From Arcobacter sp. CECT 8986 (GTDB taxonomy: Bacteria; Campylobacterota; Campylobacteria; Campylobacterales; Arcobacteraceae): a stretch of DNA of 64,000 nucleotides. This document shows positions 6,652 through 60,301 of the stretch, piece by piece; within the stretch, counting starts at the first letter, position 1; each line of letters begins with the position of its first letter. Both the position numbers and the translations under genes were made by a program. The DNA is taken from assembly GCF_004116725.1 (NCBI RefSeq), contig NZ_PDKG01000008.1:1-64000 (forward strand), given 5' to 3'. The notes below the pieces were generated by a model that was not told where the DNA came from, did not search any database, and was given only the letters and a program-made list of their open reading frames with translations.

Positions 6652-6721
6652 TTTTTAAGAGTATAAAAATTAAAATTTCTTTATAAGCAGAAAGCTTAAT
6701 TAAAAATAAAAATAAAGGTTG

Positions 6722-6727
6722 TATAAT
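6722..6727 (+). promoter_or_regulatory. Candidate -10 box (TATAAT) for the AEC transporter gene
   Basis: A perfect TATAAT lies 41 bases before the ATG at 6769 in the gap after the ABC-F gene, and a strong GGGAG ribosome binding site sits at 6759-6763. No clear -35 box is visible, which is common for the vegetative sigma factor of this phylum. Confidence 0.45.
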
Positions 6728-6768
6728 CAATTCTCTTTTTTATAATTAATTATTATTCGGGAGAAATA

Positions 6769-42101: not shown

Positions 42102-42124
42102 AAAAATATAAATTATATATTTTT
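42102..42124 (-). terminator. Possible terminator at the end of the glycan island
   Basis: A 9-bp A/T stem (AAAAATATA / TATATTTTT, 5-base loop) overlaps the stop of the nucleotidyltransferase gene and on the reverse strand runs into eight T's. Without G-C pairs the stem is weak, but it separates the island from recA. Confidence 0.4.
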
Positions 42125-42841
42125 ATTGCAAATTGTAATATTTTTTATATCAATTTGTGCTTGTTCATATGTTTCAATAGTACCAATATCTTTATGATAA
42201 AAATTATTTAAATAAGTATTAATCTTTCCTAAATAGTTTGGTATAACATCTAATGAAAAATCAAAATTATCTTTTTTATTTTTTTCTAGAAAATTCAAAA
42301 TTGATTTATTACAAATATATACTGCTCCATTTGCTAAATTTGATGGAGGATTTTTCACTTTTTCATGAAATTTTACGACAATATTATTTTCGTCAAGTTC
42401 CACAATACCACAAGATTGAGGTGTGTCAGTTTCAAAAAGCATCATTGTAATATCACAAAAATCCTTTTTTATTTCATGTGCCATAAAAAAATCTTTAAAA
42501 TTGCAAAAACATAAATTATCTGCATGAATAAGTAAAAATGAATCTACATCATCAAGATATTTTTTATTATTAAGTAGTGTTCCTGCTGTATTTAAAAGTT
42601 CTTTTTCATAAACTAAAGTAACCTTGTCTTTATATTTTGAATTTTCTACAAAATCTTCAACTTGTTTATTAAAATAGTGAGTATTAATTATAAACTCTTC
42701 AACTCCAGCATCTGTTAAATTTTCAAGCCAATATTGAAGTAGAGGTTTATTATTTATAGTAACTAAACATTTTGGAACATTATTAGTAATTGGTCTTAGT
42801 CTTGTTCCTAATCCTGCTGCAAGTAGTAGTGCTTTTTTCAT
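42113..42841 (-). CDS. Sugar nucleotidyltransferase (HddC/mannose-1-P guanylyltransferase-like)
   Basis: 242 residues, NTP_transferase fold: start ALLLAAGLGTRLRP with PKCLVTINNKPL, then DNLCFCNF metal/substrate region, and GTIETYEQA near the end. Small single-domain enzymes of this type join a sugar 1-phosphate to GTP, CTP or UTP, e.g. HddC in GDP-heptose synthesis. No acyltransferase domain. ATG start directly after the previous stop. Last gene of the island; it may activate the sugar that the neighbouring kinase fusion phosphorylates. The nucleotide is not certain. Confidence 0.88.
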   Translation of the reverse strand: MKKALLLAAGLGTRLRPITNNVPKCLVTINNKPLLQYWLENLTDAGVEEFIINTHYFNKQVEDFVENSKYKDKVTLVYEKELLNTAGTLLNNKKYLDDVDSFLLIHADNLCFCNFKDFFMAHEIKKDFCDITMMLFETDTPQSCGIVELDENNIVVKFHEKVKNPPSNLANGAVYICNKSILNFLEKNKKDNFDFSLDVIPNYLGKINTYLNNFYHKDIGTIETYEQAQIDIKNITICNKNI

Positions 42842-44269
42842 TTAAAAAGTTAACTCCTTTAATACTTCATCTTTTTTTATAGGAATATTTCCTACTCTAC
42901 TAACTTGAATTGCTGCTGCTAAAGAACCAAGATAAGCACTTTCCCAAATTGAAGCACCAACTGTTTTTGCCATTGAAGCACAAGTAATTAATGAATCTCC
43001 TGCTCCACTTACATCTTTAGCATTTTGATTTAACGCTACAATATTATCAGTAAGAAGTTCATCTTTTAAAGAATTATAAATCATAATTCCTTCACTTCCT
43101 AATGTAGTAAAAATATATTTAGGGTTTGATTTTTTTCTAAGCTCTTTTGATAATATAACTAATCCAGATTCAAAATCATTTAAAGATAATCTTATCTCTC
43201 TTTCTGTTGGAGTTACAATATCCATATTTTTAAATTTTGATATGTCTCCCACTTGAGAAGAACTTTGAGAATCTGCAACAGTTGCAATAGAATTTTTTAA
43301 AGCAAATTGTGAGATTTTATCAATCAAAGGTTTAGTTAATACTCCATATGAAAAATCAGAAAAAATTATCAAATCACAATGTTTGAAACTTTGTTCTATT
43401 TTTTTTATTATTTTAGATTCTAAATCTTTTGAGATATTATGTTGTTTTAGGTGATTAACTCTTAGTAATGTTTTATTTTGTGCTCTAAATCTTTGCTTTA
43501 AAGTAGTAGGTCTTGTATTGTCTTTATAAATAAAAGTATTAATATTTAATTCTTTCAAGTAGGATTTAGTAAATTTAAAATTTTCATCATCTCCTAAAAC
43601 AGAAACATAAGATACATTTGCACCTAATGTTTTAGCATGACTTGCAACAATTGCAGCTCCACCAATAAATTTTTTATTTGATAATGGTGTTACAACTATT
43701 GTAGGATCTTCTTGGCTCATACCTATAGGATCGCAAGTAATATATTCATCAATTATCGTATCTCCAATTACTAAAACATTTAGATTAGAAAAATTGTTTA
43801 CATGATTTCTTAGAGTTTCTGCTTTTATTTTATGTCTATTAATATATTCAGATGCATGTGTTATAAATGAATTATTTATCTCAAAATCTTTTTGTAGTAG
43901 ATTTAAAGAAGAAAATCCTATTTCTCCTGATGTAAAAAGAAGTTTCCCTCCATAACTTTTTAGAATTTCTATTTCAGGATTTTGCATATTTTCATGCTCT
44001 TTCCCTTTTACAATAATCTCAGGTTTTTCTCTTTTTATATACTCTAAAACATTTTCAGATAATAAAAAAGCTTCATCAACATAACTTGTTGCTTTTATTG
44101 ATTCTAATCTAATTTGTTCATTTAAAAGATTTGCTCTTTTATCAATTGAATCACTATTTACACCAACTATAAGGTAATCAGAACTCTCTTTTGCAAATTT
44201 AAGAAGTCTTAAATGACCTGGGTGTAGAATATTAAAGTTACCGTATACAAAAGCTTTTCTTTTTTTCAT
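42842..44269 (-). CDS. Cytidylyltransferase-PfkB kinase fusion (HldE-like in reversed order)
   Basis: 475 residues. The N-terminal about 135 residues form a nucleotidyltransferase with GNFNILHPGHLRLL (HxGH motif). A linker leads to a ribokinase-family kinase at about 165-475 with GGAAIVASHAKTLG, GDD, and the catalytic loop DVSGAGDS. Usual HldE has the kinase first and the nucleotidyltransferase second, so the order is reversed here. By analogy it phosphorylates a heptose 7-phosphate at C1 and attaches a nucleotide, but the substrate may be another sugar. The ISST-type motif of HldE is altered (SSLNLL). Neighbour of the transketolase pieces. Confidence 0.85.
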   Translation of the reverse strand: MKKRKAFVYGNFNILHPGHLRLLKFAKESSDYLIVGVNSDSIDKRANLLNEQIRLESIKATSYVDEAFLLSENVLEYIKREKPEIIVKGKEHENMQNPEIEILKSYGGKLLFTSGEIGFSSLNLLQKDFEINNSFITHASEYINRHKIKAETLRNHVNNFSNLNVLVIGDTIIDEYITCDPIGMSQEDPTIVVTPLSNKKFIGGAAIVASHAKTLGANVSYVSVLGDDENFKFTKSYLKELNINTFIYKDNTRPTTLKQRFRAQNKTLLRVNHLKQHNISKDLESKIIKKIEQSFKHCDLIIFSDFSYGVLTKPLIDKISQFALKNSIATVADSQSSSQVGDISKFKNMDIVTPTEREIRLSLNDFESGLVILSKELRKKSNPKYIFTTLGSEGIMIYNSLKDELLTDNIVALNQNAKDVSGAGDSLITCASMAKTVGASIWESAYLGSLAAAIQVSRVGNIPIKKDEVLKELTF

Positions 44270-44278
44270 TTTTTTTCT

Positions 44279-45397
44279 TTATATAAAATTTAAATGATTA
44301 GGTGGAGTTCCTGATGGTTTTTCAAGTTTAATTTCACCTTTTTTATATCCGTCTAAAAACTCATTTACTTTATGTTGTAAACATAATGACCCACACATTG
44401 TTTGCGCATCAAAATTAGGTGAAGCTAAGTGATTCATTATTTCCCAATATTTGTCACTATTAACAATATCTTTAAATCGTTGTTGTGTAATATTTCCCAT
44501 ATGAAATCTACTATATCTTTCATTGAAAAGCATACCACAAGGTGCAATCAATCCTGACCCAGAAATTTGTATTTGAAATGGAGGACCATAACATCTTTGG
44601 TAACTTCTTTTTCCTTCAGCATTTATTTTAGACCATTTTACTGAAACTTGATATTCTTCATCACTATATGATTCAGCTTCTTCTAAAATATGAGTAAGTT
44701 CAGAATATTTCGAATAATCAACTCCCAGTTTTCCATCTTCACTATCACTTGTATGTTTTACAACTAGGTAATCAGGACGAATTTCCTTACCAATTTTAGC
44801 AAGAGGAATAACTTGATCTGCATCTTCTGGCATTAATACCATTTGCATACCAATAGTAACATCAAGATTATTTTTCTTTTTTATTTCAACCATATCTTTT
44901 ATATTCTGTATAACTTGATGAAAATGGCTCTCTTTAACTCCCATAATTTCTGCATATCTTTTTGGTTCTCCTGCAGATATATTAACTCTTAAATATGTTA
45001 AGTGAGGAAGAATTCTTTCCAATGCTTCGTATCTTGTATTATATCCATGTGTTGCTGCTGCCATTGATATTCCAAGCTTAGAACCTTTTATTATTGTATG
45101 CTCGTATAAAGGAGATAAAGTACTTTCACCATCACTAACTAAAGATATTGCTTTTACTCCCATCTCTGAACAATCCTCTAAAAAAGCATCAATGTGCTCT
45201 TTTTTGATGTCAAATCTATCATTCTCTTGAAGTCTTGCATAACAAAAATGGCAACCATAATTACATGCTCTAGTTAATGCCATATCTATCGTAATAGGAG
45301 CAATTCTTTCTCCCTTTTCCCATTGTTTAATTCTATCTTGATGCCAATATATTTTTGTAGCATCTAAGATATATTTATTTTCTTTTTTTGTTTTCAT
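44279..45397 (-). CDS. Radical SAM protein with SPASM-like C-terminus (1)
   Basis: 372 residues. Cluster motif CNYGCHFC near residue 45. The C-terminal part has the Cys residues of a SPASM/twitch domain (CYGPPFQI, APCGMLFNERYS, CGSLCLQH). The last residues PNHLNFI match the end PNAHDNFI of the second such protein (48000-49091), and the two share gene layout and length, so they are paralogs. SPASM enzymes usually act on peptides or sugars; here a sugar modification is a reasonable inference from context. Overlaps the small gene upstream by 23 bases. Confidence 0.85.
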   Translation of the reverse strand: MKTKKENKYILDATKIYWHQDRIKQWEKGERIAPITIDMALTRACNYGCHFCYARLQENDRFDIKKEHIDAFLEDCSEMGVKAISLVSDGESTLSPLYEHTIIKGSKLGISMAAATHGYNTRYEALERILPHLTYLRVNISAGEPKRYAEIMGVKESHFHQVIQNIKDMVEIKKKNNLDVTIGMQMVLMPEDADQVIPLAKIGKEIRPDYLVVKHTSDSEDGKLGVDYSKYSELTHILEEAESYSDEEYQVSVKWSKINAEGKRSYQRCYGPPFQIQISGSGLIAPCGMLFNERYSRFHMGNITQQRFKDIVNSDKYWEIMNHLASPNFDAQTMCGSLCLQHKVNEFLDGYKKGEIKLEKPSGTPPNHLNFI

Positions 45398-45668
45398 CTG
45401 CTCTATCTTTTAAAAGTACTATAATCGGAAAATTTCCTAACTGTTCTCTTATATATGATTCATAAGATACTAAATAATCATAAACTTCATTTTTATTCAT
45501 AAAAAGGTTTACTTCAATTGCTTGATTATTAACCTTGATTACTTCAAGTTTATCATCAAATTTTTTGCTTAATAGTTTTACTTGATTTAATTGTTCTTCA
45601 TTTGAAATTTTTTTCCACTCAATTAATGAAGGAGATTCATATCTTTTATAATTATTTACATCTAACAT
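45375..45668 (-). CDS. Small unknown protein between transketolase piece and radical SAM gene
   Basis: 97 residues from ATG 45668, preferred to an upstream in-frame ATG at 45689 because AAAGGA sits 7 bases before it. Acidic/Lys-rich, one compact alpha/beta-looking domain with the end FPIIVLLKDRADENKKRK. It does not resemble the Transketolase_C domain. It overlaps the transketolase pyrimidine-domain gene by 17 bases and the radical SAM gene by 23, so it is part of the same module. No family recognised. Confidence 0.7.
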   Translation of the reverse strand: MLDVNNYKRYESPSLIEWKKISNEEQLNQVKLLSKKFDDKLEVIKVNNQAIEVNLFMNKNEVYDYLVSYESYIREQLGNFPIIVLLKDRADENKKRK

Positions 45669-46140
45669 ACACAGGTCCTTTATACTCAAACATCTCTTTT
45701 ATACTTTTAGGTAAATTATCTTTTGTTGGAGATAAAATTAGAAAATTTTTAAATATTTTCATCATATCGATATCATCATCATCCATACAATGGCTTCTTC
45801 CTAATTTTTCAAAGTAATTATTTGCTCCTACTCCTATTAATTTTACATTCATTGAATGTTCATTTAAATCATATCTTATTTGTTCATAAGCTCTCATAAC
45901 TAAAAAAGGAACTTGTGAATAGACTATAGGTTTTAAACCTGCTAGAAACATACCTGCACTCATACTTATTGTAGCTTGTTCACAAATTCCTATGTTAAAA
46001 GCTCTATTTTTATGATTATCAAAATAATCATCTAAGACTGCAAATCCCATATCTCCAGCAAGAAGAGCCATTTTCTCATCTTTTTTGAAATATTTATATA
46101 TCTCTTTCATTACATCTTGTTTTGAAGCTAATTCATTCAT
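45652..46140 (-). CDS. Transketolase pyrimidine-binding domain subunit, truncated form
   Basis: 162 residues. The Transket_pyr fold is clear: GDMGFAVLD, NIGICEQATISMSAG with the catalytic Glu, YSQVPFLVMRAYEQ, and the closing GPVYVRCK. A usual split transketolase C-subunit is about 300 residues with a Transketolase_C domain; this one stops at the end of the Pyr domain. It overlaps the N-subunit by ATGA. It pairs with the TPP-binding subunit to transfer a two-carbon unit, probably on an island sugar. Confidence 0.85.
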   Translation of the reverse strand: MNELASKQDVMKEIYKYFKKDEKMALLAGDMGFAVLDDYFDNHKNRAFNIGICEQATISMSAGMFLAGLKPIVYSQVPFLVMRAYEQIRYDLNEHSMNVKLIGVGANNYFEKLGRSHCMDDDDIDMMKIFKNFLILSPTKDNLPKSIKEMFEYKGPVYVRCK

Positions 46141-46928
46141 TTTCTATCTTTCCATATAAAACCATCTTCTGTGGGACATCTAAAGTGATGTTTTATAGAG
46201 TTTTCCATAAAATCTAATCCTTTACCTTTTATTGTATCACAGAATATTATTGAAAAGTTATTATTTGTTTTATTAAAAAAGTTATTATAAGAATTTTTAA
46301 GTTCTTCTATATTGTGTCCATTAATTTTTGAAAAATTGCAAGGATAGGCACTAAGAATATTACTTAGTTGTAGATTACTTAATCCTACATCACTTACTTT
46401 ACTCATTGCTTGAAGATTATTTGCATCAATTATTACTAATAAATTATCAAGTTTATATTTAGAAGCAATATTTAAAGCTTCAAAATTACTACCTTCTTGC
46501 ATCTCTCCATCACCTACAATACAAACAACTTTATTATCCATTTTTTGCATTTTAAAAGCTTGTGCCATACCCACAGCAATAGGTAATCCATGCCCTAAAG
46601 AACCCGTAGAAGCTTCAATCATATAATCTAAATTTTGAGTTAGACAACCTTTTATAGAAGAACCATTATAAAAGTTTTCTAGTTCATCATCAGGTAAAAA
46701 TCCTAATTCATTTAAAATAATATAGTAAGCGTAAGCTCCATGCCCTTTACTAAAAATTAATCTATCTCTATTATTGTCTTTGGCATCTTTTAAATTATAT
46801 TTAAAAAAATTTTCAAAAAGAACAGATAATATTTCAACACAAGATAAAGAAGGAGCTAAGTGTCCTGCTTTACTTTTACATGAAAATTCAATAGTTCTAT
46901 TTCTTATATTTGTATTTGATAAGTCCAT
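46137..46928 (-). CDS. Transketolase N-terminal (TPP-binding) subunit
   Basis: 263 residues. Transketolase_N: SKAGHLAPSLSCVEIL, SKGHGAYAYY, the TPP motif GDGEMQEGSNFEA with the paired Asn in IDANN, and HHFRCPTEDGF. Split N subunits of this length are common in archaea and in bacterial sugar clusters. It binds TPP and would transfer glycolaldehyde units together with the Pyr subunit. A TATAAT on the reverse strand (46939-46944) suggests a promoter just upstream. Confidence 0.9.
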   Translation of the reverse strand: MDLSNTNIRNRTIEFSCKSKAGHLAPSLSCVEILSVLFENFFKYNLKDAKDNNRDRLIFSKGHGAYAYYIILNELGFLPDDELENFYNGSSIKGCLTQNLDYMIEASTGSLGHGLPIAVGMAQAFKMQKMDNKVVCIVGDGEMQEGSNFEALNIASKYKLDNLLVIIDANNLQAMSKVSDVGLSNLQLSNILSAYPCNFSKINGHNIEELKNSYNNFFNKTNNNFSIIFCDTIKGKGLDFMENSIKHHFRCPTEDGFIWKDRK

Positions 46929-47001: not shown

Positions 47002-47988
47002 TTATTTCCCTAAATATTTAAACCAGTCTTTTGTTGCTTCATTTATAGAACTTTTGTCCCAGATTGGAGCTTCTCTCCATTGTTCTATATTTTCAAGCAT
47101 TATTTTTACACCTTCTTCAAAACTAACTTTTGGTTTCCAGTTTAGATACTCTTTTATTTTACTAATATCTGCATAAGTACAGTCAGGTTCTCCTGGACGT
47201 TTTGGTATATAAGTTTTTTCTCCACCTAGTAATTCAACTAAATAATTTATACTATAAGTATTGTCACTTCCTACATTAAAAATTTCATTTGTGTATTTAG
47301 ATTTTGCAGCAGTAAAACATGCATTAACAACATCTGTAACAAAAGTAAAATCTCTAGTTTGCTCACCATCTCCTACAATTGTTAATGGTTTATTATTTAA
47401 AAGTTGAGCTAAAAACACTCCAAAAACTGCACCATATGTTCCACTTGTTCTATGTCTAGGACCATAAACATTGAAAAATCTCATTGAAACTATTGGCATA
47501 TTATAAATTTGCCCCCAATGAAGTGCATACTCTTCTCCTACTCTTTTTGTGTGAGCATAAGGATATTCAGGTGCGATTGCAGTTGTTTCTGCTGTAGGAT
47601 ATGTATCAGGTATCCCATAGCAAGAACTAGAGGCTGCATAAACAAATTTTTTAAGATTTTTTGAACTTTTTGCTGCTTGTAAAATATTTATAGTTCCATC
47701 TACATTGGCTTTATGATATTTTAAAGGATTATTTATAGAAGGGACAATATCAGCAAGTGCTGCAAAATGAAATACATAGTCTACATCTTCAAAATATTTT
47801 TCTAAATTATTATCATAATCTCCAATATCTGCTTGAACAAATTTGATTTTATTTTTGTGATGATTGATGTTTTCTAATCTACCATTTGATAAATTGTCTA
47901 TAATAGTTACTTCAAAATTTTCATTTATTAATAAATCAACCATATGAGAACCAATAAAACCTGCTCCTCCTGTAACTACTGCTTTCAT
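47002..47988 (-). CDS. NAD-dependent nucleotide-sugar epimerase/dehydratase (SDR)
   Basis: 328 residues, extended SDR. Motifs: GGAGFIGSHMVDLL, IIDNLSNGRLEN, ASSSCYGIPDTYPTAE and catalytic YPYAHTKRVGEEY, plus the substrate-binding region GDGEQTRDFTFVTD. Best fit is the UDP-glucose 4-epimerase/4,6-dehydratase-like group working on NDP-sugars. The exact sugar is not readable. Confidence 0.9.
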   Translation of the reverse strand: MKAVVTGGAGFIGSHMVDLLINENFEVTIIDNLSNGRLENINHHKNKIKFVQADIGDYDNNLEKYFEDVDYVFHFAALADIVPSINNPLKYHKANVDGTINILQAAKSSKNLKKFVYAASSSCYGIPDTYPTAETTAIAPEYPYAHTKRVGEEYALHWGQIYNMPIVSMRFFNVYGPRHRTSGTYGAVFGVFLAQLLNNKPLTIVGDGEQTRDFTFVTDVVNACFTAAKSKYTNEIFNVGSDNTYSINYLVELLGGEKTYIPKRPGEPDCTYADISKIKEYLNWKPKVSFEEGVKIMLENIEQWREAPIWDKSSINEATKDWFKYLGK

Positions 47989-47999
47989 ATTATTTCCCT

Positions 48000-49091
48000 T
48001 TAAATAAAATTATCATGTGCATTTGGATTTTTTAATCTCCATAAATATCTGTTGACTTCATCCATTCTACAATTTACTCTACAATCTTTTATATCTAGTT
48101 CATTTTCTATAAAGTTAATACTTTCTTCTCTTTTTTTACTTTCCCATATATCTTGAAAACTTTTTTCTTTAATATTTCCATAACAAAATTTGTCATTACT
48201 TAAATGAGCACTGCATCCAAATACATCTCCATTTGTAGAGATATAACCCCAAAAGTAAGGAGTAGAATAGCATTTAGAATAGGGTTGTTTTTTCTCAATA
48301 TATTTATTCATAGTATTTATTCTAAATATTACATTGAACTTTTCATCAGAAATTTTTTCTAAATTATCTTTTAAATGTAACATTTTAGTATAATCAATAT
48401 TTTCATATTTTGTTGTATTACTATATAAATGTTGAGAATATGGTTTTATTACAAGATAATCTATCCCAATTTTTTTACATATTTCTGCAAGAATTATTGC
48501 TTCATCTTTATTTTCAGGAAGAAGAATTATCTGTACACCTATAGTACATTTTAAATTGTATTTTTTTCTATATTCTATTGCATACTCTAAATTAGAAATT
48601 ACTTTATCAAAATCTTTTTGATTAGTTCTGTGAATTTCTGAATATGTTTTTGCAGTTCCTGCATTCAAACTAACTTTAATCCATGAACAATTTTCTATAC
48701 ACTTTTCTATAGCTTTTTTATTTAAAGGTACAAAATTTGTAGTTAAAGATGTATCAACACCAACAGAAGAAGAGTGCTCTACTATTAAATCTAAATCTTT
48801 ATAAAGTAAAGGTTCTCCTTCTCCTGCAAACATTATACTTTTCACACCATTTTTTGCCATATTTGTAATAGTATCTTTTAAAGTATCAAATGGTATCGAG
48901 TTTTTTTGATAACCCATATAATCAACGCCACAAAATGTACATCTGTGATTACATCCACCATATGGCGATATTTCAACATATAATGGATAAATTGATTTTT
49001 TTTCTTCCCAATATTTTGAGGTAACCCATTTTGCAACTCTTATGGGATGTAACATTAATTTATGGGAATCAATAGAATAATTATCTGACAT
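48000..49091 (-). CDS. Radical SAM protein with SPASM-like C-terminus (2)
   Basis: 363 residues. Cluster motif CNHRCTFC near 50; C-terminal Cys residues (KCYSTPYF, VFGCSAHLS, KDCRVNCR) form the SPASM-type region. Same length, layout and closing residues (PNAHDNFI) as the paralog at 44279-45397, but sequence between them is quite diverged. The pair frames the transketolase/epimerase genes. Sugar C-H chemistry or epimerisation is a possible role (inference). Confidence 0.85.
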   Translation of the reverse strand: MSDNYSIDSHKLMLHPIRVAKWVTSKYWEEKKSIYPLYVEISPYGGCNHRCTFCGVDYMGYQKNSIPFDTLKDTITNMAKNGVKSIMFAGEGEPLLYKDLDLIVEHSSSVGVDTSLTTNFVPLNKKAIEKCIENCSWIKVSLNAGTAKTYSEIHRTNQKDFDKVISNLEYAIEYRKKYNLKCTIGVQIILLPENKDEAIILAEICKKIGIDYLVIKPYSQHLYSNTTKYENIDYTKMLHLKDNLEKISDEKFNVIFRINTMNKYIEKKQPYSKCYSTPYFWGYISTNGDVFGCSAHLSNDKFCYGNIKEKSFQDIWESKKREESINFIENELDIKDCRVNCRMDEVNRYLWRLKNPNAHDNFI

Positions 49092-49104: not shown

Positions 49105-49707
49105 TCATTTTAAATAATTTTTATTTTTTAAAAAACTTATAATAGTTTTAACATTTTCTTCTATTGAACAATCATATCCCTTTAATTCTATATCAGGGTT
49201 TAAGGGTTTTTCATAAGTAGAACTAATGCCTGTAAAATTTTTAATTTCACCATTTTTTGCTTTTTTATATAAACCTTTTTTATCTCTTTGTTCACAAATT
49301 GCTAAAGGTGTATTTACAAAAATTTCAATAAATTCATTTTTACTAACTTTTTCTTTTGCTTCATCTCTATTTTTTATTAAAGGTGTAATAGCAGATACTA
49401 TTGTAATTATTCCTGCATCAACAAATAGTTTTGCAATTTCTGAAATTCTTCTTATATTCTCATTTCTTGAATTTTCATCAAAACTAAGATCATTGTTTAT
49501 ACCTAATCTAACATTATCTCCATCTAAAACATAGGTGTGTAATCCCATATTATATAAATATTCATCAAGAGCATTTGATATTGTAGATTTTCCACTTCCA
49601 CTTAATCCTGTAAACCAAAGGACAAAAGATTTTTGCTTTTTTAATTTAGATCTTTGCTCTTTTGATATTTTTATTGTTTCAGAAAAAATATTTTTTTTTA
49701 TTTGCAT
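49105..49707 (-). CDS. cysC: Adenylylsulfate kinase
   Basis: 200 residues. APS kinase: Walker A WFTGLSGSGKSTIS, VLDGDNVRLGIN, the FDENSRNENIRR region, and the FTGISSTYEKP motif near 165. It turns APS into PAPS, the sulfate donor. Next to two sulfotransferase-fold genes, so PAPS probably feeds glycan sulfation here rather than cysteine synthesis. ATP sulfurylase is not in the window. Full-length and complete. Confidence 0.94.
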   Translation of the reverse strand: MQIKKNIFSETIKISKEQRSKLKKQKSFVLWFTGLSGSGKSTISNALDEYLYNMGLHTYVLDGDNVRLGINNDLSFDENSRNENIRRISEIAKLFVDAGIITIVSAITPLIKNRDEAKEKVSKNEFIEIFVNTPLAICEQRDKKGLYKKAKNGEIKNFTGISSTYEKPLNPDIELKGYDCSIEENVKTIISFLKNKNYLK

Positions 49708-49739
49708 TATAAATCTTTATTAGTCTAATAATTTTTTTA

Positions 49740-49745
49740 ATTATA
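49740..49745 (-). promoter_or_regulatory. Possible internal promoter -10 upstream of cysC
   Basis: Reverse-strand TATAAT 32 bases before the cysC ATG in a 62-base gap. Supports cysC and the genes after it being transcribed in part from their own promoter. No clear -35. Confidence 0.3.
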
Positions 49746-49769
49746 ACAAGTTAAACCTATTATTTCTTT

Positions 49770-50558
49770 TTATTCATAATATAGTATATCTTCGAAACCC
49801 AATTCTTTTGCATTATCATATAAATCGGGAGCACTCTTTTTTATTATTTGTCTTATTTGTACTTTATGAAACTCTTTTAATAATGTTCTATTTTTACTTT
49901 TATTACCTTCTCTAAAATGAGAAGAACCCACTTCTTCTTTTTTAGCTTTTTCTTTCATAGCATTAAAACTACTTTTTTCTTCTATATCACTAAGTTCTTT
50001 ATTTGATAAATTAATATTTAAGAAATTGGATATTTTTTCTATATTTTCTTTCTTGTTTTGAACCAAATCTTCATAATTTAATACAATACTTTCACAATTT
50101 TTAGAAGCTTTTAATATTTCATTACAATTTATAATTATTTCAGACATTCCATTCCATCTTAAGTTATTTTCATCGAAGCCTGTTATTATTAATGAAATTC
50201 CTTCATCAAAAGTAAATTGTTTTAAAAATTTATCTTTATTATTCCCTCTTCCTATATCAGAATCTATATTGTTATAAAAATGATAATAAATAGATATAAC
50301 TAAATCATATATATTTCTAATTACAAATATTGTTTTAGTATTGTTTTCATTTAATTTATTAACTACTTCATTTGTTGGTATAATATGCCAACTATAAAAA
50401 GTGTTTTCTTTGAATTTTAATTGTTCTGCATTAAAATATTTATTTTCTCCAGGAATTATTTCAGGTTCAAAAAAGTCCATTTTTGTCATTAAAGATAAGA
50501 TTCTTCTTGTTAACCATGTTCCCGTTTTTATTCCACTAATTAAAGCTATATTATTCAT
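49770..50558 (-). CDS. Sulfotransferase-family protein (PAPS-dependent)
   Basis: 262 residues. The N-terminal PAPS loop ISGIKTGTWLTRRIL corresponds to the 5'-phosphosulfate motif, and VIRNIYDLVISIYYHF to the 3'-phosphate motif with its Arg and Ser. The C-terminal part has REGNKSKNRTLL, near the usual RKG element. Likely transfers sulfate from PAPS to a hydroxyl of the island glycan. Adjacent to cysC and to a second fold member. Confidence 0.85.
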   Translation of the reverse strand: MNNIALISGIKTGTWLTRRILSLMTKMDFFEPEIIPGENKYFNAEQLKFKENTFYSWHIIPTNEVVNKLNENNTKTIFVIRNIYDLVISIYYHFYNNIDSDIGRGNNKDKFLKQFTFDEGISLIITGFDENNLRWNGMSEIIINCNEILKASKNCESIVLNYEDLVQNKKENIEKISNFLNINLSNKELSDIEEKSSFNAMKEKAKKEEVGSSHFREGNKSKNRTLLKEFHKVQIRQIIKKSAPDLYDNAKELGFEDILYYE

Positions 50559-51389: not shown

Positions 51390-52513
51390 TATTTTAACTC
51401 CTTTATATCATTTAATATTGTTTGAACTCTATGTACCCATAAATGTTCTTTTAAAACTTTTTTATATGCATTCTCTTTTATATCAATAATTAAGTTTTTA
51501 TTTTTAAATTTGTTAAAGTCTATATTATTAGAAAAAAAGTTTACTTTAATAAAATGAATATTTTCTTCAAATCCAATACTTTCCCAAACTTGACCAAAAC
51601 TATTTGGAACTTCACACGCTGCTACACAACATTTTGCAGCCATTGCATCAAAAGTTCTAAAATGTGGATAATTGCCATCATGTAATAATATATTACTTTT
51701 TGATAATTCTTCATTAATTCTTTTTGGAGAATCTAAAAATCCTCTATAAAAAGTTTTAAACTCTTCATAATTATTCCAATTTTGTGTACCAAAAATAGAC
51801 GTATTAAAAGATTTATTTTTACAAAAAGCATAAATAAAATTTTTTCTTCTTACTTGTCTAAAAGTTCGTGAAGTTATATCATATTCCAACGTTTTATCTA
51901 TTTCTTCATTCAGTAAAACATTTTTTTGTTTTAAAAAATCATGACAACTAACATTAATATTCTTATTCATTATATAAGATTCAAGAATTGGTAGAATATC
52001 TTTGAATTGTATCTTTTTATTATGAATGTAACCAATTTCTCTTTCAAGTTCATTTTTATTCCAAGGATTAGGAATGTGTCCTAAAAATAAAAAATCATTA
52101 GCTTTTTCTTGATTTTTTAAAGGATAATAAATTTCTTTTGATGTGGCAGGAGGTAAAAATAAAACATTTTTATTAGAACTATTTTCTAAAAAAGGTCTTA
52201 CCCAGCTTTTTGTCCAACAATATAAAATATCACTGCCTTCTATATCTTTATGTTTTCTACCCCAAAAATCAACTAACCAGCAAATATGTATAACATCTTT
52301 TGGAAATTTTTTTATTTCATTTTTACATCTGTTCATTTCAAAAACAAAATATGGTTTTATGTCATCTATTTTTTGTAATAACTCTTTTTCTTCTAATAAT
52401 GAGTATCCACCAATAACTTCTAAACCAGCTTCCTCAAAACCATTTTTAATTTGTTTATATAGATTTGTATAAAAAGTAGAATTACTTGCTAAATAAAGTA
52501 AAACTTTTTTCAT
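51389..52513 (-). CDS. CgeB-like GT-B glycosyltransferase
   Basis: 374 residues. The C-terminal half has the GT-B donor features (SNILLHDGNYPHFRTFDAMAAKCCVAACE) used by glycosyl transferases group 1 and CgeB proteins. N-terminus KKVLLYLASNSTFYTNLY. Transfers a sugar in the island glycan; acceptor unknown. ATGA overlap with the radical SAM gene upstream. Confidence 0.78.
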   Translation of the reverse strand: MKKVLLYLASNSTFYTNLYKQIKNGFEEAGLEVIGGYSLLEEKELLQKIDDIKPYFVFEMNRCKNEIKKFPKDVIHICWLVDFWGRKHKDIEGSDILYCWTKSWVRPFLENSSNKNVLFLPPATSKEIYYPLKNQEKANDFLFLGHIPNPWNKNELEREIGYIHNKKIQFKDILPILESYIMNKNINVSCHDFLKQKNVLLNEEIDKTLEYDITSRTFRQVRRKNFIYAFCKNKSFNTSIFGTQNWNNYEEFKTFYRGFLDSPKRINEELSKSNILLHDGNYPHFRTFDAMAAKCCVAACEVPNSFGQVWESIGFEENIHFIKVNFFSNNIDFNKFKNKNLIIDIKENAYKKVLKEHLWVHRVQTILNDIKELK

Positions 52514-54423
52514 ATTTTATTCCACATGAGTATTTTTTCTTTTTGTATGCCATTTGAAATTAGTAGATTATATGCTTTTTCATATTCAACCCATGGATAT
52601 ATTATAAAAGATTTATTTGAATATTTTAAAATAGTTTCTTTTGAAAGTTTTTCTACTTTAGAGTTTAAAAATTTATCTCCTATTCTGTATTCTCTTGAGT
52701 CTAAGACACCATTAACTGATATATTAAATAAGTTTGTATCATCTTTTATTGCACTAAAATATCTATCAATTGCTGGCATTACGACTATATTCTTATTTTT
52801 TTTAATAAAATTTTTTAATTTACTCTCAAATAATTTAAACTCTTTTGATATGTGTGGAATTTGTTTTGGGAGTAAGTGATGTTTACTTCTACAATTTGGA
52901 CAGACAAGGTTTATTCCTAAAAAACCATAAAAAGATTCTTTATTTTTAAAAAGATTTTCTTTATTAAATGGAAATGGAAAATTCTCATATTCACTTTCAT
53001 AGTTACATGTTGGACAAGAAACTTTTAAATATGAATGTTTAGAGTCAATATCTTTTGCTTCTATTATTTTTGTAAGAACTTTTCTATGATTTTTATCATT
53101 AATTTCTTTTAACATAGAATATCTTTCTATATATTCTTTATCTGAGAAATTTGTTAAATTAATTGGTGAATTCCACAAATATTTTGAGGTATTAGCAATA
53201 TCCTTGATAAATTGAACTCTATCATTGATTAAGTTTTTAGAGAGTGCTATATTATGAAGCACTGTTCCTGGATAAGGAAGTACCATTGACCAATCACTAA
53301 AATATAATTTATTTTTTTCTTGAAATTTTAGTGAGTCTTTTATTGTCTCTTCCGTTTCTGCTGGATCTCCATATAAGAAGTTACCTTGAATTCCTATTTT
53401 TGCTTCTCTTGTAAGTTTAATGGCATTTTCAATTTGTTCAGCAGTAATTTTTTTTTGCATACTTTCAATTACTTTATTACTTCCACTTTCTATTCCATAA
53501 GATATTTCAATACATCCTGCATCTTTCATTGTTTTTAACATTTCTAAGTCTATTTGGTCTACTCTTAACTGGCACATAAATGAAATATTTAACTTTTTTA
53601 TCTTCTCACAAAATTCTATTACTCTTTTTTTATTTAATGAAAATAATTCATCATAGATAAGAAAGTGTGTAATTTTATATTTTTCTTTTAATCTTTTAAT
53701 AAATTCTGTTGCATAGTCTACTGAGTGTTTTCTATATTTACCCATTCCTGAATGGTAGCAAAATGTACATTTAAATGGGCATGATCTACTTGCAGAAATA
53801 GGAATATATTTTCCTACAAAAGGATCTACTTTATGGTGACTCCAAATTTCTCCAGATTGAATATCTATAAATTTATCAATTTCCATTTTTTCATAATCAG
53901 GGAATGGAAGTTCATCTAATTCATTTATTGAATATGATTCATTATTTTGATATTCAATTTCTGATCTATTAAGATTAAATGACCAACTTCCTTTTGGTAA
54001 AGGTTTTTTAATGTCTGCAATATGATATAAGAGTTCTTCAAATATTAATTCACCTTCACTAATTATCATATAGTCAGGTTTAATTTCTTTTATTACTATT
54101 TCACTTTCACATGCTGTAATTCCTCCACCTAAAACTATTTTTGCATCAGATAGACAACGTAGTTTTTTTATGAGGTATTCAATTTGTTCAAAAGCAATAG
54201 TTAACCCCCCAATACCAATTACATCATACTTCTTTGATTTTAATAGGGTAGATACTTTTTCTAACCCTTTTTCTAATCCATAGTTATTCATATTTATGCC
54301 ATCTATTTCAAAACCTTTTTTTTCTAAGTATGAACATAAATATGCCATTCCTATGGGGAAATACATAGTATTTGCTGAATTTATATAAGTTGGAGCAATT
54401 AATAATATTTTTGGGAGTTTCAT
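52510..54423 (-). CDS. B12-binding-type radical SAM protein with C-terminal zinc ribbon
   Basis: 637 residues. N-terminal cobalamin-binding-like Rossmann domain (ILLIAPTYINSANTMYFPIG, then IGIGGLTIAFEQ and GGGITACESE), without the DxHxxG His of base-on B12. Radical SAM domain at about 205-400 with CPFKCTFC. Then a likely zinc ribbon (SCPTCNYESE, about 100-residue region ending CPNCRSKHH), and a C-terminal Rossmann-like domain (VVMPAIDRYFSAI, NGVLDSRE, SFIIYPWVEYEKA). Such enzymes do methylation or other radical changes at sugars or lipids. Lies in a glycosyltransferase block. Confidence 0.85.
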   Translation of the reverse strand: MKLPKILLIAPTYINSANTMYFPIGMAYLCSYLEKKGFEIDGINMNNYGLEKGLEKVSTLLKSKKYDVIGIGGLTIAFEQIEYLIKKLRCLSDAKIVLGGGITACESEIVIKEIKPDYMIISEGELIFEELLYHIADIKKPLPKGSWSFNLNRSEIEYQNNESYSINELDELPFPDYEKMEIDKFIDIQSGEIWSHHKVDPFVGKYIPISASRSCPFKCTFCYHSGMGKYRKHSVDYATEFIKRLKEKYKITHFLIYDELFSLNKKRVIEFCEKIKKLNISFMCQLRVDQIDLEMLKTMKDAGCIEISYGIESGSNKVIESMQKKITAEQIENAIKLTREAKIGIQGNFLYGDPAETEETIKDSLKFQEKNKLYFSDWSMVLPYPGTVLHNIALSKNLINDRVQFIKDIANTSKYLWNSPINLTNFSDKEYIERYSMLKEINDKNHRKVLTKIIEAKDIDSKHSYLKVSCPTCNYESEYENFPFPFNKENLFKNKESFYGFLGINLVCPNCRSKHHLLPKQIPHISKEFKLFESKLKNFIKKNKNIVVMPAIDRYFSAIKDDTNLFNISVNGVLDSREYRIGDKFLNSKVEKLSKETILKYSNKSFIIYPWVEYEKAYNLLISNGIQKEKILMWNKI

Positions 54424-55547: not shown

Positions 55548-57024
55548 GTATTTCCTCTAAAACAGTTTTTTCAATTTTTTTTACTAGATTTACATATGAA
55601 AATTCTTCTATTAACTTTTCAGAAACTTTTACTTTCGGTTCTTCTTTTAGTATTTTGAATAGTTCCTTAAGGTTTTTGAATAATATAAGTTCTTCCTTAT
55701 ATGATTCTTCTTCACATATATAGTTTTCTGAACAATCATAAACTAATGGAGTGCAATGACTTGCTACTGATTCTAAAGTTCTTTGTTGTATTGTATAACT
55801 AGGATGTGTAACTATTGCATATGTTGCACTATTATATACTTTAGAAATCTCTTCCCCATAGTTTAATACACCTTTATAATAAGGTTTTAGTTCTTCATAC
55901 TCTTCCCATCCCCATCCATAAATTTCAAGTTCATAATCTATATTTTCTTTAACCAATTCAAGTAATGTGAAATCTCTTACGATTAAAGGAATAGCATAAT
56001 TATTAAAATAAGCAATAGGACATTTATGTTTTTTAGCTAAAAATTTAATCTCTTCTAGATAAAATGTCCCTCTATTTTTATATATATCTAAAAGATCTTT
56101 TAAAATTTCTTCTCTTCTCCTATCTGATATTAATTCTTTATTTTCACCAATACTATTAAGGTAAGGAGTCAAATTGTCTTTATAAGAGCCTCCAATAAAT
56201 ACTATCTTTTTCTCTTTTTTTATCTCTTCTCTTTTTTTATAAATTGAAGTGTCAATACAAAAGTTTTGAAGTGAAATATTTTTTGCCCCTTTTTTTTCCA
56301 AAGCATATTTTATTCCAGGAATAAGACAATAAATATAATCTCTTTTTCTTTGATTTAAAGGCTCTTTATTTGTTACTATTTCCATAGTATCTTGAAACCA
56401 AACAAAATTAAAAACATCTTTATGTAAAAATGAATTATATGTGTGATTTATATTAAAAGTAATATGTGGTTTAAACTCATCAATTTTATGATAATAAATA
56501 AGATAATCCATTGCTTGCATATCATCTTCTTGAATTAAGTAGCAAACTTCATATTTACCTGTTTGTTCAAAAGCTTTTGCAATATTTTTAGATATGTGTT
56601 GCATAACAGTAGTTGCTTTGTTTGCTGGGATAAATACTCTTAGTTTTTCATCATTAAAATCAGGCTTATATTCTTGTATTTGTTTTTTATAAATTTCTGT
56701 TAAAGCTTCTCTTTCTTGCTCTACTTGAGTTAGAACACTTGTAAAGGCATTTGTGAACTCTTTTCTCTCTTCTTGAGAAATTTCTATATTGTCATAGTTT
56801 AGTTTTGTAGGTCTTCTATTTTTTGTAGTTACAAAGTAGTTATAAACATTTTCAAAAGGTACAAAAATACAGTTAGAAGGTGCATTTTCTAACTCTTCTT
56901 GTGCATTATAATAACAAATTTGGTCAAATTTAATTCTAGGGTTTTGTCCAATAATTTTATTGTTTTTTTTGGCTTCTTTTAGGGCTTCATTTGCATCCAA
57001 AAAATATGTATCAAAATATTGCAT
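55534..57024 (-). CDS. CgeB-like glycosyltransferase with N-terminal extension
   Basis: 496 residues. The first about 125 residues are a charged, partly helical extension. The GT-B-like core runs from about 128 (LRVFIPANKATTVMQHISKN) to about 470, with WFQDTMEIVTNKEP and the C-terminal HPSYTIQQRTLESVASHC donor site typical for the CgeB/DUF3880 group. It shares the family with the gene at 51389-52513. Start forms TAATG with the SIS gene stop. Often found in flagellin glycan clusters (general knowledge of the family). Confidence 0.8.
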   Translation of the reverse strand: MQYFDTYFLDANEALKEAKKNNKIIGQNPRIKFDQICYYNAQEELENAPSNCIFVPFENVYNYFVTTKNRRPTKLNYDNIEISQEERKEFTNAFTSVLTQVEQEREALTEIYKKQIQEYKPDFNDEKLRVFIPANKATTVMQHISKNIAKAFEQTGKYEVCYLIQEDDMQAMDYLIYYHKIDEFKPHITFNINHTYNSFLHKDVFNFVWFQDTMEIVTNKEPLNQRKRDYIYCLIPGIKYALEKKGAKNISLQNFCIDTSIYKKREEIKKEKKIVFIGGSYKDNLTPYLNSIGENKELISDRRREEILKDLLDIYKNRGTFYLEEIKFLAKKHKCPIAYFNNYAIPLIVRDFTLLELVKENIDYELEIYGWGWEEYEELKPYYKGVLNYGEEISKVYNSATYAIVTHPSYTIQQRTLESVASHCTPLVYDCSENYICEEESYKEELILFKNLKELFKILKEEPKVKVSEKLIEEFSYVNLVKKIEKTVLEEIHAEK

Positions 57025-57587
57025 TATTTATGCCCTTTTTCAAAATAAGAGAATAAAATATGATTAAGTATCATGTGTACATCTTCAACTATTCCATACT
57101 CACCATTGCTAGTTTCAACATGAATCTTTATATCTGCTAGATTTTTTAAAACTCCACCTTCAAAGCCACTAAAACCTACAATTATTGCACCTTGACTTTT
57201 AGCATATTCAACTGCTTTAATTATATTTGCTGAGGTACCACTGCATGATATTGCAATTAGAATATCATTTTTCTTTATAATCTCTTTTAATTGCATATAA
57301 AAAACATTTTCAAAACCAATATCATTTGCTAATGCAAAATTTACAGCAGAGTTATCTGCTAAGCTAATTACATCTAGATTAAGTCTATTTCTTCTTTTCA
57401 ATCCCACGCTTAAATCATTTGCCATATGTGAAGCAGTTGCAGAACTTCCTCCATTACCAATTATGAATACTTTACCCTTTGTTGAACTTAATAACTTTTG
57501 TAATTCTTCTAAACAATCTAAGTTTAAATTGTTTAATGTTCTATATAAAGTATCGATGTACTCTTTCGTAAATTCCTTAAACTCCAT
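57024..57587 (-). CDS. GmhA-type SIS-domain sugar phosphate isomerase
   Basis: 187 residues. SIS fold with FIIGNGGSSATASHMANDL and SCSGTSANIIKAVEYA, near GmhA length, which makes D,D-heptose 7-phosphate from sedoheptulose 7-phosphate. The conserved Glu/His pair near the end is in EYGIVEDVHMILNHI. In the island it fits a heptose branch together with the transketolase and kinase fusion, but it could isomerise another sugar phosphate. Confidence 0.85.
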   Translation of the reverse strand: MEFKEFTKEYIDTLYRTLNNLNLDCLEELQKLLSSTKGKVFIIGNGGSSATASHMANDLSVGLKRRNRLNLDVISLADNSAVNFALANDIGFENVFYMQLKEIIKKNDILIAISCSGTSANIIKAVEYAKSQGAIIVGFSGFEGGVLKNLADIKIHVETSNGEYGIVEDVHMILNHILFSYFEKGHK

Positions 57588-57596
57588 TTTTTTCCT

Positions 57597-58751
57597 TTAC
57601 CTTATTAAGAAGTCTATAAACTCTCTAACAGCGCCATTACCACCATTTTTAGATAGAATTATTATACTTTGCAATTCTTTGATTTGGCTTATCGCATTTG
57701 CTGGACAAGCTGATATACCAACATTCTCAAGAAGTTCTTTACAGTTTATATCATCTCCTATATAAGCTACTTCATTAAGTGTAATATTCTCTTTTTTGCA
57801 AATTTGTTGGGCAACTTCAAGTTTACTCATATGCTCAACACCTTGATATAAGTAATCTACTTTTAATTTTTTTGCTCTATTTTCTACAATTTTTGTATTT
57901 TCACTTGTTATTAGACCAGTTTTTATGCCTTTTTTTCTTAAAAGTTCAAATCCTTTTCCATCGTGAGTATTAAACTTTTTAAGTTCATTTCCATTCATAT
58001 CATAATACATTCCTGCATCAGTTAATGTTCCATCAACATCAGATAAAAATAATTTAATTTTTTTCTTATTTTGATTTTCGTTTTTTAAGATGTGTTCTTT
58101 CATATAAGCTTCTGCAATATGCCAATCTAAAGGTTCATCTATTTCAATAGATGTATAATCATTCATAATATATAAATCAATATCTCCAGATAATCTATTT
58201 TTATCTTTTAAAATATTCTTTACTTTATTTATATAAAAAGCACCATTTTCTAAATAAAAACCTTCAAAGTCTTGTCTTCTTGGTCTATTCTTATAGTCAT
58301 AATTTATTGAAGTTCCATCTTTTTCCCAAAAAAATCTTTTTTCTTCTACTACTGTAAGTAATGAATCTTTTTTTGAACTTTTTAATTGAGTTATTGCATT
58401 ATCAAAATCATAGCTTTGCGTAATTGGAGAAGTTGCTTGTACCAATAAAAAATAATCATCATCTTTTTGTTTATGTTTATTTAAAAATTCGAGCATTACA
58501 TCTTCTGTTGCAGATGTATCTTGGGCATTTTTTGCTTCTCTTAAATATATTATTACTTTTTTGAAGTTAAAGTTTTCAACTGTTTGTATAACTTCTTGGC
58601 AGTCTGTAGCTACATAAACTTTATCAATATATTTTGATTCTTCAATTGCTTTTAAATTCCAATAAACAAGAGGTTCCCCACAAAACTCTTTAATATTTTT
58701 AAAAGGAATTGATTTGCTTCCACATCTAAGTGGTATAAAGGCTATATTCAA
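57597..58751 (-). CDS. Bifunctional CMP-nonulosonate cytidylyltransferase + KdsC-like HAD phosphatase
   Basis: 384 residues, TTG start with AAGGA before it. N-terminal NeuA-type domain: IPLRCGSKSIPFKNIK, QATSPITQSYDF and the closing IDEPLDWHIAEAY (to about 215). C-terminal HAD phosphatase, KdsC type, from about 233: LSDVDGTLTDAG with both Asp, THDGKGFELLRKKG, and IGDDINCKELLE, where the usual Asp of GDDxxD is Cys. The domain order is that of vertebrate CMAS. It would dephosphorylate and/or activate a nonulosonic acid. Confidence 0.88.
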   Translation of the reverse strand: MNIAFIPLRCGSKSIPFKNIKEFCGEPLVYWNLKAIEESKYIDKVYVATDCQEVIQTVENFNFKKVIIYLREAKNAQDTSATEDVMLEFLNKHKQKDDDYFLLVQATSPITQSYDFDNAITQLKSSKKDSLLTVVEEKRFFWEKDGTSINYDYKNRPRRQDFEGFYLENGAFYINKVKNILKDKNRLSGDIDLYIMNDYTSIEIDEPLDWHIAEAYMKEHILKNENQNKKKIKLFLSDVDGTLTDAGMYYDMNGNELKKFNTHDGKGFELLRKKGIKTGLITSENTKIVENRAKKLKVDYLYQGVEHMSKLEVAQQICKKENITLNEVAYIGDDINCKELLENVGISACPANAISQIKELQSIIILSKNGGNGAVREFIDFLIR

Positions 58752-58753
58752 TA

Positions 58754-59416
58754 TTATTCCTTAATTATAAATGATGGTGTTAATCCAAGAGGAAGTTTTT
58801 GTATAGACTCTTTTTTATCTTTAAAAAAGTCATCAACGGCTTTAGTTTCGCCTGGAAAAGTTCCATAATCATCAAAAATAATAACACCGCCTTTTACAAC
58901 TTTTTCATACATAGTGTCTAAAATAGTAGTAGCAGGTTCATAAACATCAGTATCTATGTGAAGTAGGGCGATTTTTTGATGAGGGTTCTCTTTGCAATAT
59001 TTTGGGACTGTTATATTGATATCACCTTTTATAAGTTGATAATTTTCAATATTTTTATATTTCATTATTTTTTGCATTTCTTCAATTTCAATACTTTGGC
59101 TACCTGCACTTTTTAAAAAGTTATCAAGATACTTTTTATCATCATTGAAATTTGTCTCTGGAAATACTCCAAATATGTCAAATCCTATTAATCTTCTTGA
59201 TGTTCTGGCTTCCAATAAATCTCTAAAGTGTGCAAATCTAAAAAAAGAATTTCCTTTGAATATTCCACATTCAATAACATCTCCAGGAAGATTGATAATT
59301 CTTTTATAAAGTTCATAATGTGCCAATAACTTACTAAATCTAGATTCAGTTGATGTTGCATAAAACCCATTTTCATATTCAAACATTTTTTTTGTTTTAA
59401 AGTTATTTAATTTCAT
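58754..59416 (-). CDS. TylF/macrocin O-methyltransferase-type SAM methyltransferase
   Basis: 220 residues. SAM fold with GDVIECGIFKGNS, LIGFDIFGVFPE and the metal-binding DTDVYEPATT...GGVIIFDDYG typical of TylF. These methylate hydroxyls of sugars. Probably O-methylates an island sugar. ATG start; the neighbours are 2-3 bases away. Confidence 0.87.
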   Translation of the reverse strand: MKLNNFKTKKMFEYENGFYATSTESRFSKLLAHYELYKRIINLPGDVIECGIFKGNSFFRFAHFRDLLEARTSRRLIGFDIFGVFPETNFNDDKKYLDNFLKSAGSQSIEIEEMQKIMKYKNIENYQLIKGDINITVPKYCKENPHQKIALLHIDTDVYEPATTILDTMYEKVVKGGVIIFDDYGTFPGETKAVDDFFKDKKESIQKLPLGLTPSFIIKE

Positions 59417-59419
59417 TTT

Positions 59420-60301
59420 TTACTTTCTATTTTTTAATTTATCTCTTTGGATTTGTTCAATTTCTAATATTTCATCTTTTTTAAATGTTAAAGCTTCATA
59501 AGTAGCATTTAAATTTCTTACAAGTTTTCTAAGACCATCTTGTTCAAGTGATGCAGCATGGTCTGTACCTTTCCATGTTCTATCTTTAGTAAAGTGTCTT
59601 TCAATCCATCTAGCTCCTAAAGTGTAAGCAGCAATATCAAGTGCTATTCCTAAATGATGTCCAGAAAAACCAATTTCATTAACTCTATTTTGATAATTTT
59701 CATATAACCAATTAATTTCAAGTAGTGCCACATCTTTTGCAGGAACTGGATATCCAGAAGTACAAGAGTAAATTAATAATCTAGTTTTTGCTTGGTCTGT
59801 CTCTTCAAAAAATTTAACAATCTCTTCTACTTCTTCTTTACTTGTCATTCCTATTGATAATTGAACTTGACCTTTATATTCATCTCTTAAAACTTTTAAC
59901 ATTTTAAAGTTATTATTGCAAGCAGAAGGAACTTTTAAAAACTCTGGATTAAAAGTTATCATCTCTTTTGCACTTGTTACATCCCAAACTGATGTTGAGT
60001 ATACAATTCCAATTGAATCACAATAATCTTTCAATTTTGAGTGTTGTTCTTTTGTAAATTCTAAATATTCTCTATGTGCTCCATAAGTATTTCCATAAGA
60101 GTTTTCTGGTACTGGATGTGGGGCATTGTATTGTTCTTCTGTTAATAACTCTTTATTATTTCTTTTTTGAAATTTTACATATTTTGCTCCTGCTTCTTTT
60201 GCAAGGTCAATTAACTCTTTTGCAATTTCAAAATTCCCCATATGATTGCAACCAATTTCTGCAATTACTTTAGGCTCTTTATAATCAAAATTAAAACTCA
60301 C
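59420..60301 (-). CDS. NeuB-family nonulosonic acid synthase without SAF domain
   Basis: 293 residues, GTG start overlapping the previous gene by 11 bases. TIM-barrel of the NeuB family: IAEIGCNHMGNFEIAKELI, KYVKFQKRN, LKVPSACNNN, SIGMTSKEEV and IERHFTKDRTWKGTDHAASL. It condenses PEP with a mannose-type sugar. The C-terminal SAF (antifreeze-like) domain of about 60 residues seen in NeuB, LegI and PseI is missing; the protein ends after a short helix. Type of sugar unknown. Confidence 0.9.
   Translation of the reverse strand: MSFNFDYKEPKVIAEIGCNHMGNFEIAKELIDLAKEAGAKYVKFQKRNNKELLTEEQYNAPHPVPENSYGNTYGAHREYLEFTKEQHSKLKDYCDSIGIVYSTSVWDVTSAKEMITFNPEFLKVPSACNNNFKMLKVLRDEYKGQVQLSIGMTSKEEVEEIVKFFEETDQAKTRLLIYSCTSGYPVPAKDVALLEINWLYENYQNRVNEIGFSGHHLGIALDIAAYTLGARWIERHFTKDRTWKGTDHAASLEQDGLRKLVRNLNATYEALTFKKDEILEIEQIQRDKLKNRK

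Follow-up and report, generated by a model that had tools for sequence, protein, structure and literature searches.

A split transketolase-family enzyme without a Transketolase_C domain, conserved in sugar clusters of Campylobacterota and other phyla

What does a transketolase do without its third domain? In the 64,000-nucleotide stretch of Arcobacter sp. CECT 8986 analysed here (hereafter the window), a transketolase is split into a TPP (pyrophosphate-binding, PP) and a Pyr (pyrimidine-binding) subunit, and Pfam finds no Transketolase_C domain (TKC) in the Pyr chain. A sequence-only reading of this DNA had reported the split, a Pyr subunit of 162 residues that ends exactly at its domain, and a 97-residue (97-aa) gene overlapping it by 17 bases; all of this is borne out by Pfam, the coordinates of the open reading frames (Table 1) and the domain limits of a related enzyme. 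It had gone on to propose that the 97-aa protein takes the place of TKC, and that the layout points to a special two-carbon transfer within a sugar cluster.

Table 1. Features of the window that are discussed in the text, with coordinates in the window.
Feature	Coordinates	Strand	Evidence
TPP (pyrophosphate-binding) subunit of split transketolase	46137..46928	-	263 aa; PF00456 Transketolase_N, 1e-28 (Pfam)
Pyr (pyrimidine-binding) subunit	45652..46140	-	162 aa; PF02779 Transket_pyr, 2.5e-11, spanning residues 12-160 of 162 (Pfam)
97-aa ORF, C-terminal alpha-beta-beta-alpha-beta domain of the 'mid' family, probable rSAM1 accessory	45375..45668	-	
rSAM1, radical SAM/SPASM, partner of the 97-aa family	44279..45397	-	Pfam, tree
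HldE-like nucleotidyltransferase-kinase, HldE paralogue	42842..44269	-	
Sugar-phosphate nucleotidyltransferase	42113..42841	-	
SDR epimerase/dehydratase-type sugar nucleotide enzyme	47002..47988	-	
rSAM2, radical SAM/SPASM, commonest TPP/Pyr companion	48000..49091	-	
GmhA-like SIS isomerase, recurrent in related clusters	57024..57587	-	

Judged by their sequences, all three are real genes: homologues of each are present in several genera, and pairwise dN/dS values of 0.07-0.34 indicate purifying selection on TPP, Pyr and the 97-aa gene. Neighbouring genes overlap, by 4 nt between TPP and Pyr, 17 nt between Pyr and the 97-aa ORF, and 23 nt between the 97-aa ORF and rSAM1. The 97-aa ORF starts at an ATG (use of an upstream TTG would give 104 aa) and has no match over the cut-off in a Pfam search.

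The absence of TKC is a conserved trait. In the split transketolase of Carboxydothermus (ChTK), the C chain comprises a Pyr domain at residues 1-162 and TKC at 164-312 (PMC7661550), which places the end of the window's Pyr chain at the domain border. With duplicates removed, a survey of 397 genomes of the class plus one genome per GTDB species found TKC-less TPP/Pyr pairs at 47 loci in seven phyla: Campylobacterota, Pseudomonadota (Pseudoalteromonas), Thermodesulfobacteriota, Lentisphaerota, Planctomycetota, Myxococcota and Acidobacteriota. The Pyr chain ends 1-2 residues past the last arginine of the Pyr domain (YxR motif) in 45 of the 47; of the two exceptions, L089 runs into the end of its contig, and in L050 the frame shifts within a C tract. 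This recurrence rules out both a frameshifted or truncated version of a normal Pyr-TKC gene and a chance origin of the end. The PP and Pyr domains lie on two adjacent genes in 46/47 loci and are fused in L051; this natural TPP-Pyr fusion of Helicobacter cinaedi (L051/L079), of 485 aa, has the same end point and is also without TKC. In a tree built from the TPP subunit alone, and so blind to the TKC trait, a single branch of moderate support (SH-aLRT 94, quick search) has every one of the 47 TKC-less pairs on one side and the 20 TKC-bearing pairs, without exception, on the other; the former make up one distinct clade. Plasmid and phage records gave distant matches only (28-34 percent). In two Helicobacter-type loci the Pyr coding region has a run of C at its end, 10 long in L050 (8478-8487, plus strand) and 11 long in L051 (7427-7437, minus strand), a candidate phase-variable switch; the run in L050 shifts the frame, with loss of the last Pyr-domain residues.

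Could TKC be supplied by a separate gene? Pfam searches of the window genome and 17 others found no stand-alone TKC gene above the family cut-off: all matches in the window genome lie in frames of 376-640 aa, and those in the other genomes in frames of at least 320 aa, bar one sub-cutoff match of 142 aa (18.8 bits, G399). We therefore reject this possibility, which the sequence-only reading had named as a finding that would overturn its proposal. Nor does a replacement seem to be needed, since TKC is reportedly dispensable for the activity of E. coli transketolase, and a version stopped at G540, and thus TKC-free, reportedly shows a higher rate (PMC5286519); the role of TKC is still unexplained (PMC5286519, PMC2831816). 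Given this dispensability, the absence of TKC lowers only the claim of a standard architecture. Sulfopyruvate and phosphonopyruvate decarboxylases are also ThDP enzymes of Pyr and PP domains only. Although two-domain like the TPP/Pyr pair, they are listed apart from transketolase, in different ThDP superfamilies (PMC2831816).

The best PDB relative of TPP is ChTK-N (6yak, profile E 8e-50) and that of Pyr is ChTK-C (6yaj, E 2e-18, Pyr part only). Active-site residues were mapped by alignment to these two chains, followed by column counts across the clade; they are numbered as in E. coli transketolase (EcTK). The pair has a Transketolase_N-type PP domain, with the transketolase-like motifs KGHG, EASTGSLG and GDGEMQEG, and a Transket_pyr domain with an invariant catalytic Glu (EcTK E411, Pyr Glu54); TKC is the one family feature missing. 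The ThDP motifs GDGE and D-A-N (GDGE...N) are invariant in 47/47 TKC-less TPP subunits, and His26, His66, His261 and His473 are kept as well. Scores against the dxs equivalog, a full-length model with a cut-off of 466 bits, were 75.6 for TPP and 43.1 for Pyr, short of that cut-off.

Around this preserved core, substrate-binding residues have changed. The donor is bound in transketolase by His66, His100 and His473 (PMC7661550), and this triad of EC 2.2.1.1 is incomplete here: His100 is Cys (Cys95) in 47/47 members of the TKC-less clade and retained in 17/21 TKC-bearing pairs. Acceptor choice in E. coli transketolase is steered by Asp469, Ser385 and Arg520 (PMC5073344). Leu replaces Asp469 in each of the 46 TKC-less pairs that can be read there, the Ser385 position holds Ala, Gly or rarely Ser (Ala34 in the window), and Arg520, part of the phosphate site, is retained; His461 of the same site is Gly (Gly105 in the window), as it also is in the TKC-bearing pairs used here. 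The exchange of His100 for Cys and of Asp469 for Leu makes unusual substrates probable, and with donor and acceptor-steering residues altered they likely differ from those of the housekeeping enzyme, a full-length transketolase encoded at C6 of the window genome.

Known split enzymes resemble the pair in part. ChTK has PP and Pyr on separate chains and the same ThDP motifs, but it possesses TKC, and where we find Cys, Leu and Gly it has the donor His, the Asp that precedes GxSH and the phosphate-site His. Other TKC-bearing split transketolases, found in related genomes (L019-L033, L052, L088, L091, L092) and several of them in sugar clusters, are likewise encoded by two genes and share the Gly in place of His461, but they carry a TKC of 132-154 residues, belong to the other clade and mostly keep His100. 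The 6-deoxy-6-sulfofructose transketolase SqwGH (PMC11659671) also consists of two subunits with an altered phosphate-orienting motif (RAFDR for RSFHR); it differs in retaining the C-terminal domain and in being catabolic.

In which pathway might such an enzyme act? The gene order rSAM2-SDR-TPP-Pyr-(mid)-rSAM1-HldE-like-nucleotidyltransferase is common to many Campylobacterota and to Pseudoalteromonas, and the cassette is kept in Desulfobacteraceae L085 with rSAM2 and SDR swapped in order. Directly upstream of TPP/Pyr, or one SDR gene away, rSAM2 is found in 43/47 loci, and the SDR gene adjoins the pair in most; seven loci are without the window-type SDR and have a different SDR type after Pyr. 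The HldE-like enzyme has its nucleotidyltransferase domain before the kinase, the reverse of HldE, and scores 215 bits versus a cut-off of 345; the GmhA-like isomerase scores 114 versus the gmhA cut-off of 209. Housekeeping copies of both lie elsewhere in the window genome, and the cluster copies are diverged paralogues. Both genes are missing from part of the TKC-less loci, whose limited length means that neighbours may be missed. In L052 the slot of the pair is taken by a split transketolase with TKC (6340-8949), which adjoins the same rSAM2 and an SDR gene broken into two frames; this suggests that TKC-bearing and TKC-less pairs catalyse a similar class of reaction. A search of the open-access literature for the cassette, or for the Helicobacter cinaedi or Pseudoalteromonas version of the system, found nothing.

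The clusters hold further modules. In the window, a NeuB-family synthase, a TylF-type methyltransferase and a PseF-like cytidylyltransferase fused to a KDN-9-phosphatase-like HAD domain (57597-60301) make up a nonulosonic acid module; an APS kinase beside a sulfotransferase (49105-50558) suggests a sulfated glycan; and a B12-binding radical SAM protein is encoded at 52510-54423. In L048, a Phd antitoxin/PIN toxin pair (8019-8628) is inserted in the sugar cluster.

We consider it probable that TPP and Pyr form a minimal, TKC-free enzyme of the transketolase family, dedicated to two-carbon transfer in the synthesis of an unusual nucleotide sugar, and that the 97-aa protein is an accessory of rSAM1. 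With only the PP and Pyr catalytic domains on its two subunits, the enzyme would most likely assemble as alpha2beta2 with ThDP bound at the PP/Pyr interface, and would require no substitute for TKC. Its reaction would most likely be a ketol-type transfer of two carbons rather than a decarboxylation. The product would most likely be a nucleotide-activated sugar of an unusual kind, probably branched or with a higher number of carbons; rSAM2, the SDR, rSAM1, the HldE-like protein, the nucleotidyltransferase and, in many loci, the GmhA-like isomerase would be its partners in the pathway. The special two-carbon transfer suggested by the sequence-only reading is thus supported as probable by the altered substrate-binding residues and the conserved sugar-nucleotide cassette. 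More tentatively, and at rather less than even chances as a whole, this cross-phylum clade of two-domain transketolases, in which Cys has replaced the donor His and Leu has replaced Asp469, could perform a two-carbon transfer new to transketolases, onto a nucleotide sugar or a non-phosphorylated acceptor, together with two radical SAM/SPASM enzymes, one of them equipped with a degenerate NifU-like accessory. As a natural transketolase without the third domain, the TPP/Pyr enzyme would offer a natural test of the role of TKC, and the cassette with its two radical SAM enzymes would mark an uncharacterised nucleotide-sugar pathway shared by Campylobacterota, Desulfobacterota and Pseudoalteromonas. 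Being small and altered in its donor and acceptor residues, the enzyme could find use in C-C bond formation as well.

At which step would the two carbons be added? A late-acting enzyme would branch a nucleotide sugar by placing the unit on a keto group, as split transketolases have been proposed, so far without proof, to do in miharamycin and amipurimycin biosynthesis (PMC12247030). These Streptomyces systems, which we compared by description, are similar in that split transketolase genes lie in a sugar biosynthetic cluster. We regard this variant as possible but rather unlikely: an acceptor of the classical sugar-phosphate type is disfavoured by the loss of His461 (Gly105) and by Ala34 and Leu in the positions of Ser385 and Asp469, and the SDR gene beside TPP/Pyr fits as well, but Arg520 is retained, the window SDR looks epimerase-like rather than 4,6-dehydratase-like (SSSCYG motif), and the seven loci with another SDR type do not fit. 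An early-acting enzyme, to which we likewise give well under an even chance, would instead feed a parallel heptose-like pathway, made up of the GmhA-like and HldE-like enzymes and the nucleotidyltransferase, with a C7/C8 ketose phosphate. The recurrence beside TPP/Pyr of these diverged paralogues of housekeeping enzymes fits such a pathway, but several pairs show no GmhA-like gene nearby and the genome already has a full-length transketolase. Several sugar-phosphate-binding residues are moreover changed, and the altered phosphate and acceptor residues weaken the case for a plain sedoheptulose-7-phosphate-like route, despite the retention of Arg520.

That the pair uses ThDP for a different reaction altogether, for example one with a pyruvate-type donor or a decarboxylation, appears improbable. 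The residue equivalent to His100 is Phe in DXPS, and H100F/L substitutions raise pyruvate use by a transketolase (PMC7661550), so the invariant Cys of the clade could be read in this way, and DXPS scores next after ChTK with the Pyr profile; the TPP subunit, however, is far closer to transketolases than to DXPS, and its motifs are transketolase-like.

What, then, is the 97-aa protein? It belongs to a family, mid, with invariant W, L and E residues and a D-x-N-x-x-R end. Stand-alone versions of 92-99 aa occur in eight loci, directly after Pyr in four (the window, L053, L054 and L055) and separated from it by an SDR gene in the other four (L043, L047, L072 and L073). Longer proteins contain the 97-aa sequence at their C-terminal end, where it makes up half of the 197-200 aa protein of Pseudoalteromonas (E 1e-20 to 5e-15) and part of the 235-243 aa proteins encoded at other loci (E 5e-7 to 6e-4, from a small set); a search for further mid proteins in the Pseudoalteromonas family found only two genomes, both already in our set. 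The gene always lies immediately upstream of rSAM1. All 20 loci with an rSAM1 of 65 percent or higher identity to that of the window have the gene, as against 0/15 with an rSAM1 of 56-63 percent identity, and one change, gain or loss, explains its presence on the rSAM1 tree; with a branch support of only 76/61, a single origin is likely rather than proven. By contrast with this full correlation with an rSAM1 subclade, mid is missing from 27 of the 47 TKC-less loci, and in L090, where the order is mid-rSAM1-TPP-Pyr, it stays with rSAM1, away from Pyr.

AlphaFold2 models, built from shallow alignments of 17 rows, give the N-terminal domain of mid an IscU fold (whole-model pLDDT 87; Z 9.0 to IscU, with 93 residues aligned at 3.7 A) and the window's 97-aa protein a small alpha-beta-beta-alpha-beta domain (pLDDT 82). 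The best fold match of this C-terminal domain is that of NFU1 (Z 7.9-8.2, but at an rmsd of 8.8-9.3), followed by domains of CDF transporters and RbfA (Z about 7), values that may reflect just a common arrangement; with Foldseek, every E-value for the mid model exceeded 0.001. The 97-aa protein contains no cysteine and so cannot ligate an Fe-S cluster through Cys. Against TKC, hhalign detected no profile similarity (probability 0.3 percent; control 100 percent), and a TKC relic was rejected on this basis.

The 97-aa protein is thus most likely an accessory domain of rSAM1 and not of the transketolase, presumably as its physical partner, and the proposal that it replaces TKC is not supported: the gene is not conserved next to Pyr, the other finding that the sequence-only reading had said would overturn it. 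A three-subunit transketolase could draw on the 17-nt overlap and on the loci with mid directly after Pyr, but is very improbable given the pattern of mid occurrence, the lack of profile similarity and a modelled small fold that differs from the five-stranded TKC sheet (PMC3352088). The position directly after Pyr in four of the eight stand-alone cases does make some contact with the transketolase possible. Uncharacterised two-domain proteins, IscU-like plus alpha-beta-beta-alpha-beta and with only one conserved Cys, are encoded at L075 9514-10110 and L076 9491-10090, always upstream of a radical SAM/SPASM gene.
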